DNA of 64,000 nt from Bacteroidales bacterium. GTDB lineage: Bacteria > Bacteroidota > Bacteroidia > Bacteroidales > M50B96. The notes under the pieces are model-generated. The model was not told the origin of the DNA. It made no database searches and saw only the letters and a list, made by a program, of their open reading frames with translations. Within the stretch, counting starts at the first letter, position 1; every line of letters starts with the position of its first letter. Both the position numbers and the translations under genes were made by a program. Shown one piece after another: positions 1,044 to 8,059 of this stretch. The stretch lies in contig JAGYLP010000010.1 in NCBI GenBank assembly GCA_018401015.1, forward strand, positions 1-64,000, given 5' to 3'.

Positions 1044-3953
1044 GTGAAAGCTCTTTATTCTCTAACTCTCGCCCTACTGCTGATGACGGCTTCCCGGAGT
1101 CTGATGGCTCAGGACGACGAGTTTTTACTGAGCTTTCGTCATCCTGCTGTAGGTGGTTACTACATCAATGCTTTGTACAACGAGCATGGTGTGTATTTGC
1201 CGGTAGGGGAGTTGTTCGGATTACTTTACATCCCTCTCGAAAAAGGAGAAACCGGCTTCAGCCTGCAAGGAACCTATCCTGAAGAGCTGGAGTTTTTGAT
1301 TGATCCAGCCGGTTTCACCGCTAAAGTTGGTGGAGAAGCTTTCACCTTGGATCCCACGGAAGTACGCATTGGCGAAATGGATTTATTCCTCGCACCCGCC
1401 GTGTACGAACGCTTGTTCGGATTACTCTTCCAGGTCGATATGAGTGCCTTGAGCCTCAGCCTTACCGCTTTGCATGCCCTGCCGGTAGAGGAACGCAAGC
1501 AACGCGAAAGCTTGCGGAAAGAACTGGAACGTCGGCAAGGCGACAAGCGCGATTTCCCTTTGTTATTTCCTCGTCAGCATCAGCGTTTAACCGGTGGAAT
1601 GGTCGATTACGCCCTGGGTTATACCCATGCACAAGGTTCCAATCAAATGAACTATACCTTTTTAGGCGGCATCGAATTATTAGGTGGCGATATTCAGGGT
1701 AGCGCTTTTGGTACTTTAGGCGATCAAACCAATAGTTTGGGTTTTTCGAATTCGAACTGGCGTTTTGTTCCTCGCGATAACCGTTACCTAACTGCCATTC
1801 GGGTAGGGCAGGTGAACTCGACCAGCATTGCTTCCAGTAATTTTATGGGTGTATCGCTCACTAACGATCCGGTAATGCCTCGCCGCGTTTACGATACCTA
1901 CGTAGTGGAAGGAACTACCATTCCCGACTCCGATGTGGAATTATTGGTCAACAATCAATTGGTCGATTATACCAAAACCGATGAGGTAGGGTATTATCGT
2001 TTCAATTATCCCTTGAATTATGGTACCGCTCGTATCAGCACCCGAATTTATACTCCCTCCGGCGAAGTGATTGTAGAAGAACAACAGATTCAGGTTCCCT
2101 TTACGTTTTTACCAGCCGGAGTGATGGCTTACAACGCGCAAGCCGGTTATGTGCTCAACGATAGCACCAACCTGAGCCTCGAGAATCCGTTTCGGATGCA
2201 TGGCGACGTTGCCTACGGTATTACTAGAGCATTAACCGCTAAAGTGGGAGCCGATTGGTCGCCAAACGATACCTTACCTTTTTATTATGGTAGTGTTTCC
2301 ACCCGTTTATTCAATCAGTACTTATTCAATGTAGATTTGGCTCCCGGCCATTTTTCGCGTGCTAGTGCCAGCGTAACTTACGCCAGCAACAAAAGCATTC
2401 AGTTGGTAGCATCCGATTATTATTCCGAAGGAATGTTCAATACGGGTGCCTTGAACCGCGATTTGCAAGCTAGTTTATACTTGCCTTTTCATGTATTTGG
2501 CATGTTTTCCGGTGTACGATTGGGAGCCGACCAACAGTATTTCCTCAACGGTTCTACCGGTACTCAATATCGTTTCGATTTGAATACCCGGATTGGACGG
2601 ACCATTCTTCGTTTGAATTTCCGTGAGCGGGTGATGCAGGATTTGGAGTTGCCGCTGGAGTATGAGCAGAGTCAAGCTTCTCTCGTAATGAATTACAATG
2701 TAGGACGCTCGGCTGGTTTGCCTCCATTTTTACGCGGTATGTTTATTCGTTTGCAAGCCGATTATGCGGTACGCGAGAATCAGCTAGCGCGGGTTGCTTT
2801 ACAATTTAACCGACCCATAGGCAGTCGCGGACGTATTCAGTTCCGTACCGGATACGATTTTGCTAATCAAGGCTTTACTGCACAGGTATTGCTCACACTC
2901 GATTTATCCTTTATTCGTTCCAATACGCAATACACGCATCAAGCTGGGCAATCGAATCTGTCGCAGAATTTGACCGGTTCAATTGGGTTTGATAATGGGA
3001 ATCATCGAATTATTCCGACAAATCGGAATCAGGTTGGTCAATCGGCTGTTTCGGTTCGCGGATTTGTCGATAAGAACGAGAATTTCTTGTACGACGAAGG
3101 CGAGGAGATCGTTCCTATTCGTAGCCTGAGTCTCGATCAGGGAGCTATGCAGCAGTTAGGTTCCGATACCATTTTGCGTATTTCTCAGCTTCAACCATAC
3201 TGGCGCTACAATGTAAGCATCAATCCGAATGCGATTCCCAACCCGATGTTGGCTCCTTTGGTAAATGAATTTTCTTTCGAAGCCGACCCGAATCAGTATA
3301 AACCCATCGATGTACCTTTGTATCGTACAGCCGTGATCGATGGAACCGTAGTTTATGACGAAGGCGATGGTAAGGCAGAACCCTTGGGCGGATTGCGACT
3401 TTTGCTCGAATCGAATTTCACCACCTTTAGCGAAACCATGCGTACTTTTTCTACCGGTGAGTTTTACGCGATGAACATCCTTCCCGGTAGCTATACTTTA
3501 CGAGTTGATCCGGTTCAGTTAGATTTTCTGGGAGCTCAATCGGAGCCTTCTTCCATCAGCATCAATGTAAGTGCTAAGGCTGAAGGTGATTTCATCGAAG
3601 GATTGAATTTTTACCTGAGTCCGAAAACCGATACTCCTCCGGCCGAGCCTGTTAGCGAACCCGATATTCATCAGTTTGATCAGCTTTATTCGCTAAAGAT
3701 TCAGCAGCATGTGCACCATTACGTAAAGGCGCAGGAGTATTTCTACGAGCGTGATTTCCAGAAAGCACGCGACGAAATTGATGCTGCGTTGAATTTCTAT
3801 GCTACCAATGTAGCCCTTGCCTTGAAAGGGACCATTATGTTTGCCTTGGGCGATCGGAACGAAGCGCAGAAATTGTGGGAAGGTGCCCAAAAGAACGATC
3901 CGGATATACAAATACCCGATTCACAGGAATTGGAGAAAATTATTTTGAACTAA
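1044..3953 (+). CDS. Outer-membrane usher-like protein with a C-terminal TPR module
   Basis: A 969-residue protein starting at GTG, the only start that keeps the whole signal peptide (residues 1-22, ending LMAQ). Residues about 25-170 form an N-terminal domain with the look of an usher chaperone-binding domain ('LPVGELFGLL', 'ALPVEER'). Residues about 190-650 are a long series of aromatic amphipathic strands, as in the usher barrel. Within it, about 283-365 resemble the usher plug ('VVEGTTIPDSDVELLVNNQLVDY', then strands rich in Gly and Tyr). Residues about 670-860 contain beta domains, one with an acidic loop DKNENFLYDEGEE. The last 94 residues (about 876-969) are helical and TPR-like. This tail is not part of classical ushers and resembles the lipoprotein at 5979. 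Expected role: a pore in the outer membrane that assembles and exports a fibre; the periplasmic tail could contact the motor proteins encoded next. Confidence 0.8.
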   Translation: MKALYSLTLALLLMTASRSLMAQDDEFLLSFRHPAVGGYYINALYNEHGVYLPVGELFGLLYIPLEKGETGFSLQGTYPEELEFLIDPAGFTAKVGGEAFTLDPTEVRIGEMDLFLAPAVYERLFGLLFQVDMSALSLSLTALHALPVEERKQRESLRKELERRQGDKRDFPLLFPRQHQRLTGGMVDYALGYTHAQGSNQMNYTFLGGIELLGGDIQGSAFGTLGDQTNSLGFSNSNWRFVPRDNRYLTAIRVGQVNSTSIASSNFMGVSLTNDPVMPRRVYDTYVVEGTTIPDSDVELLVNNQLVDYTKTDEVGYYRFNYPLNYGTARISTRIYTPSGEVIVEEQQIQVPFTFLPAGVMAYNAQAGYVLNDSTNLSLENPFRMHGDVAYGITRALTAKVGADWSPNDTLPFYYGSVSTRLFNQYLFNVDLAPGHFSRASASVTYASNKSIQLVASDYYSEGMFNTGALNRDLQASLYLPFHVFGMFSGVRLGADQQYFLNGSTGTQYRFDLNTRIGRTILRLNFRERVMQDLELPLEYEQSQASLVMNYNVGRSAGLPPFLRGMFIRLQADYAVRENQLARVALQFNRPIGSRGRIQFRTGYDFANQGFTAQVLLTLDLSFIRSNTQYTHQAGQSNLSQNLTGSIGFDNGNHRIIPTNRNQVGQSAVSVRGFVDKNENFLYDEGEEIVPIRSLSLDQGAMQQLGSDTILRISQLQPYWRYNVSINPNAIPNPMLAPLVNEFSFEADPNQYKPIDVPLYRTAVIDGTVVYDEGDGKAEPLGGLRLLLESNFTTFSETMRTFSTGEFYAMNILPGSYTLRVDPVQLDFLGAQSEPSSISINVSAKAEGDFIEGLNFYLSPKTDTPPAEPVSEPDIHQFDQLYSLKIQQHVHHYVKAQEYFYERDFQKARDEIDAALNFYATNVALALKGTIMFALGDRNEAQKLWEGAQKNDPDIQIPDSQELEKIILN

Positions 3954-3957
3954 AAGC

Positions 3958-5949
3958 ATGAACAAGACTTTGACATCGATCCATCGGCAACTTTCCCCAG
4001 CGTGGGGGAGAGGTATGGGATTGCTGTGTCTGCTGGTGCTTGTTCTCTCACTTGGTTCCTTATCCGGACAAGATTCGGTAGTAGTTAGCAATCCGCCCCT
4101 CGATTTGGATAAATTCTTTTCTACCGTTTTGTCCGAAGAGAGTCCACAGGAAACCAAAGTTAAGAGCGACAATATTTTATCGACTCAGGTAAGAACCAAG
4201 AAGGTTCAGGAGAATCAGAAACTCGACGATTATCGCTTGAATTTGCTTAAGTTCCGCTACGAAGAGAAATTGCGTAGCACCCTCGATTTATATTTTGATC
4301 CATCGAGTTATTTTGCGACCATCGATTTAGATGTTTCGATTGAGCAGAGCAAAGAGATTCCGACACTGGAAATTGAAACCGGTGAGCCTGACAACACCAG
4401 TTTGCCGGGCATTCCTTTTGTACCGGAGAGTATGCTTAAGGACCGCGATTCACAAAAGAGCGAGGTTGAGCTCGAGGCTGTGATTAAGGATGTGAAAACA
4501 AGTATTAATCAAGTGAAGCTTACTTTGTTAATCGACAGTTCTTTTACCGAAGAGCAAGTGAGTTTAATGCGTACCATGGCTTCGTCCACCCTTAATTTGC
4601 GGCCGGAGCGAGGCGATCAGATTATTATGCGATTGTATGCTTTCCCCGGACGCCAGGAGCCGATGATTCGCTCAACGGTGTCGAACGATTCCTTGCGAGT
4701 GTATTCCGATCGTGATGTGGTAGCAGAAGTGAAAAATTCACCTCAGGAAGACGAACCCACCTTGTCGCGGTCCAATTTATGGATTTGGGTTTTGCTACTC
4801 ATTTTAGCATTTTTCCTTTCCTTGTTTATAGCGAATCTACTGCGCAAACGTCGCACCGACAGCGACGAATCGGCCGTGATGGTTAATCCGGGTCATGCCC
4901 TACAGGCTATTGATGCTCAGTTGCCTGATAGGCGTGTAGCCATGAGTTCCGCTTTCGACGATGAATCGCTCGACCAAATGATGAAAGCCTTCATTGAGAC
5001 CCCTGAACAGATTGCCTACTTGTTTGATCAGTGGATATCTTTATCGGAAAGCAAGGGTGCCCGCAAAGCAGCTCAATTGATTCATTTAACTGACTCTCGT
5101 TTTTTACCCATGCTCGAACCCTTTATGAGCAAGGAAATTTGTGGTTTAGTGAATCGAGCCTACGAGGACCAGCGCGACCTCTTCCTGGAGTTGAGTAATA
5201 TTGAAATACAACGCTTACGATCCGAGTTTGCACATATCTTACGAAGCGAGGTTTTAGGTAATTTGAGCGAATTCCGTTTCCTAAATTATGTGTCGAACGA
5301 TATCATTCTCCGAATTTGCCGAGACTTATCGCATGAGCAGACTGCTATTCTGATTAAAAATCTTCCTACGGAAAAGGCTTCGGAATTGATTAAGAGTTTG
5401 AATCCGCTCAATGCCGGACGCGTTTTATACCTGATTGGTAAAAAGGATTTTTACGATTCGGAAGCATTGAAACAAACTGCTCGTAAAGTTTTTATGGATT
5501 ACGTTCAGTTGAACAATGCTGTGGAGTATAAAGATAAGAACGTGACCTCACTTATAAAGATTATCGAAGATTTACCTGTTGATAATCAGAGTAGTATGTT
5601 GCGAATGCTCAGCGAGCAAGATCCCGATTTATACAACATGGTACGGAAGCATATTTTCACTTGGGATCATATTTTCAGCTTCAGCAACCGCATTCTGCGC
5701 GAGGCTTTGGTTTCGGTCGAAAGTCGCAGCATTGCTTTTGCGATTGTGGACATGCGCGAGGAGCATGCCGATCGACTTTTGCAAATACGCTCCGAGCGTG
5801 AGCAGCAGTTAATCATGGAAATGATTGCCAATCAGGAAATGATTCCCGACGAGGATATTGAAGAAGCCAAATTATTGATTATCCGTACGGTTAAATCGTA
5901 TGTCGATCATGAAAACAGAAGAGATGCGCTGGTTAAATCGGCCTCTTAA
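3958..5949 (+). CDS. FliF-like / FliG-like fusion protein (rotor ring plus switch domain)
   Basis: A 663-residue protein starting 4 bases after the usher stop. Residues 1-37 hold an N-terminal hydrophobic segment (signal peptide or anchor). Residues about 95-235 match the third ring-building domain of FliF: 'YEEKLRSTLDLYF', then 'VKLTLLIDSSFTEEQ' and 'LRPERGDQIIM...FP', the ERGD motif typical of FliF just before its second membrane helix. A transmembrane helix follows (273-293), then RKRR. Residues about 330-405 resemble the FliG N-domain and about 430-520 the FliG middle domain, with HEQTA at 459-463 near the family EHPQ motif. Residues about 540-655 match the FliG C-domain ('MVRKHIFTWDHI', charged helix at 577-590, 'RSEREQQLIMEMI'). 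The first two FliF ring domains are absent. Inferred role: an inner-membrane ring with cytoplasmic torque surface, driven by the MotAB-like pair at 6588-8059. Confidence 0.85.
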   Translation: MNKTLTSIHRQLSPAWGRGMGLLCLLVLVLSLGSLSGQDSVVVSNPPLDLDKFFSTVLSEESPQETKVKSDNILSTQVRTKKVQENQKLDDYRLNLLKFRYEEKLRSTLDLYFDPSSYFATIDLDVSIEQSKEIPTLEIETGEPDNTSLPGIPFVPESMLKDRDSQKSEVELEAVIKDVKTSINQVKLTLLIDSSFTEEQVSLMRTMASSTLNLRPERGDQIIMRLYAFPGRQEPMIRSTVSNDSLRVYSDRDVVAEVKNSPQEDEPTLSRSNLWIWVLLLILAFFLSLFIANLLRKRRTDSDESAVMVNPGHALQAIDAQLPDRRVAMSSAFDDESLDQMMKAFIETPEQIAYLFDQWISLSESKGARKAAQLIHLTDSRFLPMLEPFMSKEICGLVNRAYEDQRDLFLELSNIEIQRLRSEFAHILRSEVLGNLSEFRFLNYVSNDIILRICRDLSHEQTAILIKNLPTEKASELIKSLNPLNAGRVLYLIGKKDFYDSEALKQTARKVFMDYVQLNNAVEYKDKNVTSLIKIIEDLPVDNQSSMLRMLSEQDPDLYNMVRKHIFTWDHIFSFSNRILREALVSVESRSIAFAIVDMREEHADRLLQIRSEREQQLIMEMIANQEMIPDEDIEEAKLLIIRTVKSYVDHENRRDALVKSAS

Positions 5950-5978: not shown

Positions 5979-6482
5979 ATGAAAGTTACAGCAACATTAA
6001 AACAAGCGTTTTTCATCCTAACGATAGCACTTATATCGGTTAGTTCGTGTACCACTCAACGATCAACCGCTATTGTCGATTACGGTAAAAGCATGCAAGC
6101 ACCACCCAAACAGGAAGAGGTAGCCGACACACCTGCCTTATTGGCCGATAGTTCCACCGATGGACAATTGGCAATCGACGAGGAGAGTATTCAGCGTTCT
6201 TATATCGAGCGGGCCAATCAGGCATTAAAATATTATTTGAAAGCACAGGTTTCATTCCGAAATAAAAAATACCAGCAAGCACTCGATTTTATCAATTACT
6301 CGCTTAATACAGAATTTACAGCCGATGCTAGTGCTTTGAAAGGAAGTATTCTCTATAAAATGAGTTCAACCCGCGAGGCAGTCGAAGCCTGGAAGCTTGC
6401 TTATGAGACTAATCCGGCCAGTATCAATGCCGATTTGCCCGGTTTCCGCGATGCTTATCAGGCATTTTTGAAAAACCAGTAA
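5979..6482 (+). CDS. TPR-containing lipoprotein
   Basis: A 167-residue protein with an AAGGA ribosome-binding site upstream. The signal sequence ends VSSC, so Cys24 is the probable lipidated residue. The C-terminal half (about 78-165) forms TPR-like helices: 'YYLKAQVSFRNKKYQQALDF' and 'ALKGSILYKMSSTREAVEAW'. This half aligns with the C-terminal module of the usher at 1044-3953 (shared pattern Y-x-K-A-Q, then A-L-K-G-[ST]-I-[ML], then EA-x-x-W/L-W), so the two probably derive from one module. It lies between the FliF/FliG-like gene and the stator genes. Possible roles are a pilotin for the usher or a link between the outer membrane and the rotor; neither is shown by the sequence. Confidence 0.75.
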   Translation: MKVTATLKQAFFILTIALISVSSCTTQRSTAIVDYGKSMQAPPKQEEVADTPALLADSSTDGQLAIDEESIQRSYIERANQALKYYLKAQVSFRNKKYQQALDFINYSLNTEFTADASALKGSILYKMSSTREAVEAWKLAYETNPASINADLPGFRDAYQAFLKNQ

Positions 6483-6587: not shown

Positions 6588-7376
6588 ATGCGCATCAATG
6601 TTTTCAGTATCCTCATTATTGTTTTTTCCCTGAGTATTTTTACCCTCGGACTCCTGGAGGTTTCGGGTATTTATCCCTGGGCTCCCGAATTTAAAGAAAC
6701 GCGCTTTCTGAATCTTCCCAGCTTATTCATCCTGTTAGGTGGCCTCATGAATTATGCAGCGGTTACGCGTCCGCCGAAAGATTTTCTCATCATTTTGCGC
6801 GCCATCGGTATCTATTTTTCCCACGGACGAAACGATCGGGCGGAGCATAAGCGCAGCATCGATACCATCATTTCCTGGCAAAACATGCTCAAAAAAGACC
6901 GGCTCGATTCCCTTACTGTGCTAAGCCGCAAATACCGGAACTCGTTCGAAGGTTATGTTTTCTCCCTCATCCTGACCAATTATTCCTACGATGAGGTGAA
7001 AATTTTAGGAGAACTCGAAATCGATTCCCGCTATCGGAACACCGCAGCCGGCAGTCAAATTTTAGCCCAGCTAGGCAATGCCAGCCCGGCTTTTGGCATG
7101 CTCGGAACACTCATTGGTTTAATTTCCATGATGAACTATTTTGAAGATCCCTTGCAATTGGCTTCGGGGTTAACGGTGGCTCTCATGACGACTCTGTACG
7201 GTCTCGTTTTAGCGCAATTTCTGTGGTATCCGCTTAGTAATAAGCTGAAAAATTATGCACAGATAGAGGCTTACCGAAACAAAATTTATCTGGAAGGGAT
7301 TATCCTCATTGCCAAAAATAGACCCCCACTGTACATTAAAGATTACCTCCGGGCGCTCATAAAAAGCGAAGTATGA
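6588..7376 (+). CDS. MotA-like stator subunit (MotA/TolQ/ExbB proton channel family)
   Basis: A 262-residue membrane protein with four predicted transmembrane helices (about 5-25, 42-60, 166-184 and 190-213) and a cytoplasmic loop between helices 2 and 3, the MotA layout. Helices 3 and 4 carry the family signature: 'GNASPAFGMLGTLIGLISM' with Pro167 and Thr173, a short loop with FEDP, then 'TVALMTTLYGLVLAQFLWYP' with Thr201/Thr202 and Pro215. The pattern, including the '..DP..L..G..VAL..TLYG' linker, is closer to MotA/PomA than to ExbB, TolQ or GldL. It would form the pentameric ring around the MotB-like subunit and press on the FliG-like domain encoded at 3958-5949. The stop overlaps the next start by 4 bases (ATGA), implying translational coupling. 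Confidence 0.88.
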   Translation: MRINVFSILIIVFSLSIFTLGLLEVSGIYPWAPEFKETRFLNLPSLFILLGGLMNYAAVTRPPKDFLIILRAIGIYFSHGRNDRAEHKRSIDTIISWQNMLKKDRLDSLTVLSRKYRNSFEGYVFSLILTNYSYDEVKILGELEIDSRYRNTAAGSQILAQLGNASPAFGMLGTLIGLISMMNYFEDPLQLASGLTVALMTTLYGLVLAQFLWYPLSNKLKNYAQIEAYRNKIYLEGIILIAKNRPPLYIKDYLRALIKSEV

Positions 7377-8059
7377 AAAATCAAACGGAGCCGGACTGGA
7401 AAAACGACACAAACCTCGATGATTCAGGTAATTCCGAATCCCTTTGGATGATTAGTTACCTGGATACGTTTACCCTGTTGTTGGTATTTTTTGTCTTGAT
7501 AACCATTATTACCGGCAAGCAAATGAACTTGACCGAAGCCGAAAAACGGGAGTTAACCAGCTCTTTCACAGGGGAGGAGCATGTAAGGTATCCGCTGCAA
7601 GAACTTTTGCTCGACTTGAACCTTTTGCTGGAAAGCGAAAAAGAGGCCGGAAGAGTGATTATTACCTCCGATGAAAATGAGCTGAGGCTTCAGTTCCCGG
7701 GCAGCTCTTTCTTCTTAAGCGGGGAAGCCAATGTTTTGCCAAACGGAAAAGCAATCTTAGAAAAGATTGTGGGTGTAACCCACCGCTTGAAACATTACCC
7801 GTTTAAAATCGATGTGGAGGGTCATGCCGATAATCGTCCAATTAATTCGTCGGTTTTTCCGAGTAATTGGGAACTGTCGGCGGCACGAGCGGCTAACATC
7901 GTTAAATCTTTTATTGAATCGGGTTACGACCCGAAACGCCTCAAAGCTTCCGGCTATGGCGATACTTTTCCTCTCAAACCCAACGAAGATATTTTAGGTA
8001 ACCCAATTCCCGAAAACCTCGATTTGAACCGTCGCGTGGTGATTCGTTTGTATTTCTGA
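7373..8059 (+). CDS. MotB-like stator subunit with OmpA peptidoglycan-binding domain
   Basis: A 228-residue protein. One transmembrane helix (about 24-46) begins LWMISYLDTFTLLLVFFVLI. This matches the MotB helix W-M-x-S-F-x-D-x-x-T-L-L-L-x-F-F-V-L, and Asp31 stands at the proton-carrying aspartate (Asp32 of Escherichia coli MotB). Residues about 100-228 are an OmpA-like domain ('VEGHADNRPI', 'NWELSAARAANIV', 'ASGYGDTFP', 'NRRVVI') that anchors the stator to peptidoglycan. It overlaps the MotA-like gene by 4 bases and closes the same-strand run. The retained aspartate indicates a working ion channel. MotAB-like pairs also occur in gliding motors (GldLM) and Zorya defence systems; the adjacent FliG-like partner favours a rotary stator here. 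Confidence 0.9.
   Translation: MKNQTEPDWKNDTNLDDSGNSESLWMISYLDTFTLLLVFFVLITIITGKQMNLTEAEKRELTSSFTGEEHVRYPLQELLLDLNLLLESEKEAGRVIITSDENELRLQFPGSSFFLSGEANVLPNGKAILEKIVGVTHRLKHYPFKIDVEGHADNRPINSSVFPSNWELSAARAANIVKSFIESGYDPKRLKASGYGDTFPLKPNEDILGNPIPENLDLNRRVVIRLYF

Follow-up and report, generated by a model that had tools for sequence, protein, structure and literature searches.

What does a flagellar-type rotor protein do in an operon that encodes a chaperone-usher pilus? The locus that raises this question lies at the start of the window, the 64,000-nucleotide stretch of Bacteroidales contig JAGYLP010000010.1 analysed here, where a preliminary description had read one gene as a FliF-like ring and a FliG-like switch fused in a single polypeptide. 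Evidence drawn from HMMs, PDB fold matches and ~30 related loci bears on this identity, and a natural FliF(RBM3+TM)-FliG chain adjoining MotA and MotB is confirmed by sequence profiles and the predicted fold as well as by conservation within the family and the genomic context. It is about an even call whether an ion-driven MotAB stator works this one-chain rotor, coupled through TPR proteins to a chaperone-usher pilus that it most likely rotates.

The genes form a tight, co-directional run with small gaps or overlaps, in the order pilin, PapD-like chaperone, usher with a TPR tail, FliF-FliG fusion, TPR lipoprotein, MotA and MotB. The window starts at the contig start and the pilin gene is cut there, leaving its C-terminus alone inside the window. 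The features are as follows.

2-52, + strand: 3' end of the pilin gene, ...EQGDYTGTMTFEVKYN* (from translation), with a Y-x-G-...-YN C-terminal motif
62-95, + strand: terminator-like hairpin between pilin and chaperone genes, 15 pairs and a T-rich tail (consensus match only)
152-994, + strand: PapD-like periplasmic pilus chaperone with moderate support, 280 aa (PapD_N E 0.0036, below cut-off; position beside the usher)
1044-3953, + strand: outer-membrane usher of the FimD/PapC type by fold match, 969 aa, GTG start, TPR tail at ~878-955
3958-5949, + strand: FliF-FliG fusion rotor protein, 663 aa, ATG start (HMMs, PDB fold matches, relatives)
5979-6482, + strand: TPR lipoprotein, 167 aa (Pfam TPR_21 above cut-off; C24 is a candidate lipid site)
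6588-7376, + strand: MotA-type stator A subunit, 262 aa (MotA_ExbB E 4.7e-19)
7373-8059, + strand: MotB-type stator B subunit, 228 aa, with a plug (MotB_plug E 3.3e-7) and an OmpA peptidoglycan-binding domain (OmpA E 2e-14)

The window's genome, which is 99% complete, contains no FlhA-family (FHIPEP) gene and no YscJ_FliF-family gene, so the operon is not flagellar. FliM and FliN are also absent from the operon.

The gene at 3958-5949 is a real, single open reading frame of 663 residues. Its product can be divided into a signal or anchor helix (residues 15-32), an RBM3 domain (~85-230), a transmembrane helix (~270-302) and a FliG-like region (363-654) that includes a torque helix (607-624). 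An AlphaFold2 model built from nine family members has a mean pLDDT of 63, a modest confidence, and for this reason only its local folds are used here. In this model helix 15-32 leads into a stretch with little order. Next come helix 91-112 and strand 118-130, an insert without a model (130-179), and then strand 179-193, helix 198-211 and strand 221-227. A long helix that crosses the membrane (270-302) precedes the remaining part (332-662), which is entirely helical. The order helix-strand-insert-strand-helix-strand is that of FliF RBM3, which model residues 83-230 match with Z 13.5 at 3.2 Å over 101 residues (VIA-align). Pfam YscJ_FliF_C matches 6 of the 9 family members (best 1e-5) and Pfam does not detect the FliF half of the window protein taken singly; its ERGD aligns on the RGD motif of FliF. 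The RBM3-like domain with ERGD and the single transmembrane helix that had been proposed are thus both upheld, the latter by the modelled helix between the RBM3 domain and the FliG-like half. The proposed absence of the first two FliF ring domains also held, since the RBM1/RBM2 region (PF01514, YscJ_FliF) has no match in the fusion or elsewhere in the window's genome. The suggestion that the periplasmic ring must consequently be much smaller does not follow, because RBM3 alone forms 33-34-mers in flagella.

The FliG assignment of the C-terminal half is supported by several kinds of comparison. Pfam FliG_C matches the window protein above its cut-off (E 2.8e-12) and all nine family members, the TIGR00207 fliG model matches at E 7.8e-10 (38.6 bits, under the model cut-off of 226.7 bits), and sequence comparison finds FliG of PDB entry 3hjl at E 4.7e-7. 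A profile of the nine family members matches FliG 1lkv in the PDB at E 8.5e-14. The fold agrees, with model residues 363-654 matching FliG 6-324 at Z 12.6 and FliG_C alone giving Z 13.0 at 1.8 Å over 88 residues (VIA-align; Foldseek was also run on the model). The FliG-like segments expected after the membrane helix are therefore a full-length FliG-like region, and the outcome named in advance as a refutation, the lack of any FliG match to the C-terminal 330 residues, is ruled out by the Pfam, TIGR00207 and PDB matches. The phrase 'minimal one-chain rotor' aptly describes this RBM3, transmembrane and FliG fusion beside MotA and MotB.

A FliG_C match is by itself weak evidence for a motor, since the domain also ends GH57 glycosidases. 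FliG_C also matches proteins in a further 23 genomes of the order; these were considered as fusion relatives and rejected, as those examined were GH57 glycosidases with a C-terminal FliG_C-like domain. Such proteins occur at L028:8685-10280 and ~20 other loci (Glyco_hydro_57 E ~1e-77 and FliG_C E ~1e-14 in the three tested), and their genes adjoin those for a conserved ~650-aa protein and a probable glycosyltransferase.

More specific are the charged residues of the torque helix, which alignment to FliG places at residues 607-624, with R611, R614, E615 and E621. The helix proposed earlier, with Arg578, Arg581, Glu582 and Arg590, contains those residues but is the one that precedes the torque helix. 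All 24 fusion proteins examined have a basic residue at the position of E. coli FliG R281 (window R614) and an acidic residue at that of D288 or D289 (window E621), and alignment to E. coli FliG shows that K264 and R297 are not retained. Alignments A1 and A7 show no variation in the motif RxxREQ (611-616); elsewhere it has one-residue exceptions in the type II loci described below and is replaced by another sequence in type III. The HEQTA motif had been placed correctly near the FliG EHPQ site, but EHPQ, the FliM-binding motif, is not itself conserved in types I-III.

Judged on sequence criteria, the gene pair at 6588-8059 qualifies as a MotA/MotB stator; ion conduction by a 5:2 assembly has not been shown. 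Among NCBIfam models, the A subunit matches those of the flagellar MotA/PomA type at up to E 1.8e-30, versus 0.011 for TolQ and 0.029 for ExbB. The equivalents of MotA P173 and P222 are invariant in all relatives, the R90 position is basic in types I and II, and the E98 equivalent is retained in type II only, having been lost in type I. The proton-site Asp of MotB (E. coli D32; window D31) is present in every relative. In type I loci of family f202 the MotB protein is lengthened to 500-630 aa (L132:5443-6957, L143:11808-13535), and the one tested, from L143, has C-terminal SPOR domains (PF05036 E 2.7e-14).

The usher encoded beside this motor is identified by its fold. An AlphaFold model of the 1044-3953 product, compared with the PDB by Foldseek, has only ushers as its best 19 matches (E 3.4e-22), and the top 15 rows of a VIA comparison are FimD or PapC (Z 23.9 over 408 residues; best other barrel Z 15.6). 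On this predicted fold the protein is an usher, a barrel with a plug region; with sequence alone, the usher profile matches E. coli ushers only weakly (E 0.018, probability 3%). Support for a PapD-like chaperone at 152-994 is moderate: alignment of 14 family members with 5 E. coli K-12 chaperones gives E 1.3e-4 and a probability of 54% (hhalign), and the gene always adjoins the usher gene in the loci compared. The pilin end at 2-52 and its relatives carry the expected C-terminal chaperone-binding strand with a penultimate aromatic residue, and the motif is common to small secreted proteins encoded 5' of the chaperone in related loci. An aromatic residue is last or penultimate in 101 of 140 such proteins, compared with 67 of 513 other ORFs. 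The hairpin at 62-95 possibly lowers expression of the downstream genes relative to the pilin; terminator-like sites across the region are not more numerous than expected by chance.

The usher's TPR tail and the TPR lipoprotein are homologous (hhalign E 1.6e-11). The lipoprotein is likely a periplasmic linker, and its Cys and TPR are conserved in 8 family members. The same genome contains a second, apparently motorless chaperone-usher system spread over two contigs (L159, C14:1-14000; L160:8454-10913 on C39), with a 3556-aa adhesin that has laminin-G-like, GEVED, SprB-repeat and T9SS sorting domains. DUF4402, tried as a pilin finder, identified no pilins in this genome, and a pilin found by a family profile on contig C14 belongs to this second system.

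Searches for the fusion protein identified it in 6 of 395 genomes at class level and, at E < 1e-20, in 23 of 395 of the phylum, where ~350-aa FliG matches were taken as ordinary flagellar FliG and left out; among 393 genomes of the order, only the window's own has a full-length one. A single-sequence query with the fusion found no matches among genome contigs, and a search of them with an usher alignment worked. The essentials of the operon recur in at least four Bacteroidota families and in three layouts. Type I has the order chaperone, TPR-tailed usher, fusion, TPR lipoprotein, MotA, MotB and is found in the window, a Bacteroidales MAG (L066), Algoriphagus marincola DSM 16067 (L086) and families f168, f200 and f202. 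Type II (f202), which often shares a genome with type I, has no usher and encodes the fusion, a ~360-aa secreted protein (a possible small barrel), a TPR lipoprotein, MotA and MotB. Type III (f209) also lacks an usher and encodes a ~370-aa secreted protein, a TPR protein, MotA, MotB and the fusion. Usher-free motor cassettes at L140:8828-13815 and L147:5656-10902 carry a conserved secreted partner of ~360-375 aa, and type II, in which MotA R90 and E98 are both present, is closest to flagellar stators. The usher of a motorised f200 locus (L135:3893-8494) has 1533 aa and is far longer than others. In a FliG tree the fusions split from flagellar FliG with 99/99 support; rooting on flagellar FliG gives the branching order flagellar FliG, III, II, I, and long branches make the inner placements unsure.

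The modules of this system occur, and are lost, together. In 20 of 20 complete loci the usher TPR tail goes with the ring protein (one contig is counted twice). The tail is absent from all 26 usher loci that have no motor; among these is a second usher locus in A. marincola, a species that thus holds one tailed, motorised locus and one tail-less, motorless one. MotA accompanies the fusion in 29 of the 30 FliG-bearing loci not cut by a contig end; the exception is L064, where neither MotA nor MotB was found in the neighbourhood of the fusion. At two further loci (L150:9357-10388 and L167:9219-10187) an RBM3-TM protein lies beside a TPR usher without the FliG half and without MotA and MotB, and the L167 protein has gained an N-terminal peptidoglycan-binding LysM domain (E 3.9e-13), as if a rotor had been turned into a fixed anchor. 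From these counts, the FliG half is found where the stator is, and the RBM3 half where the TPR linker and the usher are, a pattern that matches expectation if FliG takes the force of MotAB and the ring hands it to the usher. The counts are not independent, because many loci are related and one contig was counted twice.

These observations can be assembled into a proposed mechanism. MotA/MotB stators would be anchored on peptidoglycan through the OmpA domain of MotB, ions would pass at MotB D31, and the stator would exert its force on the torque helix in the FliG half of the fusion (R614, E621). The fusion would form a ring with periplasmic RBM3 domains, one transmembrane helix per subunit and FliG domains facing the cytoplasm, and would presumably turn in one direction without a chemotactic switch, since FliM and FliN are missing from the operon and the fusion no longer has the FliM-binding motif. 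Ring and usher may be linked by the TPR lipoprotein and the homologous usher tail, and by such a link the work of the motor would reach the usher and a pilus with a tip adhesin, most likely as rotation. The composition of this machine is well supported: sequence, predicted fold and comparative genomics show the parts, the conservation of their order and of their active residues, and the co-occurrence and co-loss of modules. That a ring assembles, which ion is used, that the parts are physically coupled and that they rotate are inferences, as is the biological purpose, be it surface movement, active adhesion or stirring.

Several considerations weigh against a pilus motor. To our knowledge, chaperone-usher pili normally work without an ion-driven motor, and neither rotation nor even a pilus has been shown here by experiment; the E98 equivalent of MotA is gone in type I, and L064 has no MotA/MotB nearby. 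It is possible, though unlikely, that the motor instead powers pilus assembly or retraction, with a FliFG moved by the proton motive force opening or gating the usher in the manner of ExbBD-TonB and without continuous rotation of the fibre. Usher and motor do share an operon, the TPR tail is on the C-terminal, periplasmic side of the usher (the side is inferred from FimD), and coupling of proton motive force to the outer membrane is a known principle (TonB, T9SS). However, close sister ushers function without motor or TPR tail at 26 loci, which makes energised assembly less likely, the FliG domain and torque-helix charges imply a tangentially driven ring, and types II and III keep the motor without an usher.

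Of a different kind is the proposal, which we regard as rather improbable, that the motor carries usher and adhesin laterally or along the cell surface, as GldLM does with SprB, and does not spin them in place. The operon has no track protein and flagellar RBM3 rings are closed circles, yet Bacteroidota are largely without flagellar motility and commonly glide (PMC13104615), and the adhesin of the second, motorless usher cluster has SprB repeats and a T9SS sorting tail; GldLM-like lateral movement cannot be excluded. Weaker still is the case for a fixed basal scaffold, load sensor or decaying remnant in which FliG/MotAB torque has been lost. Replacement of the motor by a fixed anchor at some loci (the LysM domain of L167), loss of E98 in type I and sequence identities of only 16-24% would fit such decay, but lineages that have diverged far retain the ion-site Asp, both channel prolines, the R281 and D288/289 positions and the peptidoglycan-binding domain, and FliG and MotAB are lost jointly, not piecemeal.

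Comparison with known systems places the rotating-pilus reading in context. The RBM3 ring domain, charged FliG torque helix and MotA/MotB with its Asp, prolines, plug and peptidoglycan anchor are shared with the flagellar motor, whereas here FliF and FliG form one chain, the FliG halves are a separate clade (the 99/99 split), the output is an outer-membrane usher, and RBM1/RBM2, the FliM-binding motif, export apparatus, rod, hook and filament are absent from the operon. Chlamydiaceae also have a natural FliF-FliG fusion in a host without flagella, described with few flagellar genes only, which are thought to serve the injectisome (Bergeron 2016, PMC4768692). Of FliG, the chlamydial protein has just the middle domain; it retains an RBM2-like domain and is without RBM3 or the FliG torque domain (PMC4768692), while the fusion described here has RBM3, a full FliG with its torque domain, and MotAB. 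Engineered FliF-FliG fusions (Salmonella fusions; Vibrio S-ring structures 8z4d/8z4g, PMC11481574) likewise make a one-chain rotor subunit and can form rings, but are artificial, contain full FliF and act inside a flagellum.

The pilus genes resemble FimC/FimD and PapD/PapC in their probable chaperone, an usher fold that includes a pore and a plug region, pilins that end in an aromatic motif, and a tip adhesin; classical systems have neither the usher TPR tail nor an operon-encoded rotary motor. The GldLM/T9SS gliding motor of the same phylum is also an ion-driven inner-membrane motor that acts on outer-membrane or surface proteins but is without FliG or an RBM3 ring; GldLM resembles MotAB without being homologous, and a 2026 gliding review mentions neither FliG nor ushers (PMC13104615). 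A MotAB phylogeny over 205 genomes tied torque-interface stators to flagella (PMC12505986). No description of a flagellar-type motor joined to a chaperone-usher system was found in the open-access literature searched, which did not cover preprints and most subscription journals; the kinds of component are known, and the combined machine appears not to have been described previously.

Rotor proteins of the flagellar kind in bacteria that lack flagella are a recognised puzzle. A survey that found FliG, FliM or FliN in 11% of non-motile species without filament proteins suggested an unknown alternative function for them (PMC12199754), and this operon offers a concrete alternative role for such orphan rotor proteins, that of a stripped rotor and stator on a pilus. 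It represents a natural minimal torque generator of three proteins and joins two machines that were not known to be joined. The chances seem evenly balanced that these loci define a new class of rotary surface machine, in which a MotAB-driven FliF-FliG rotor is an interchangeable module that turns chaperone-usher pili in type I and drives another outer-membrane partner in types II and III, and which may descend from the flagellar motor or branch beside it, independently of the flagellar export apparatus. The system bears on the origin or re-use of the flagellar motor, and its presence in Algoriphagus marincola DSM 16067, a cultured type strain, makes direct testing possible.
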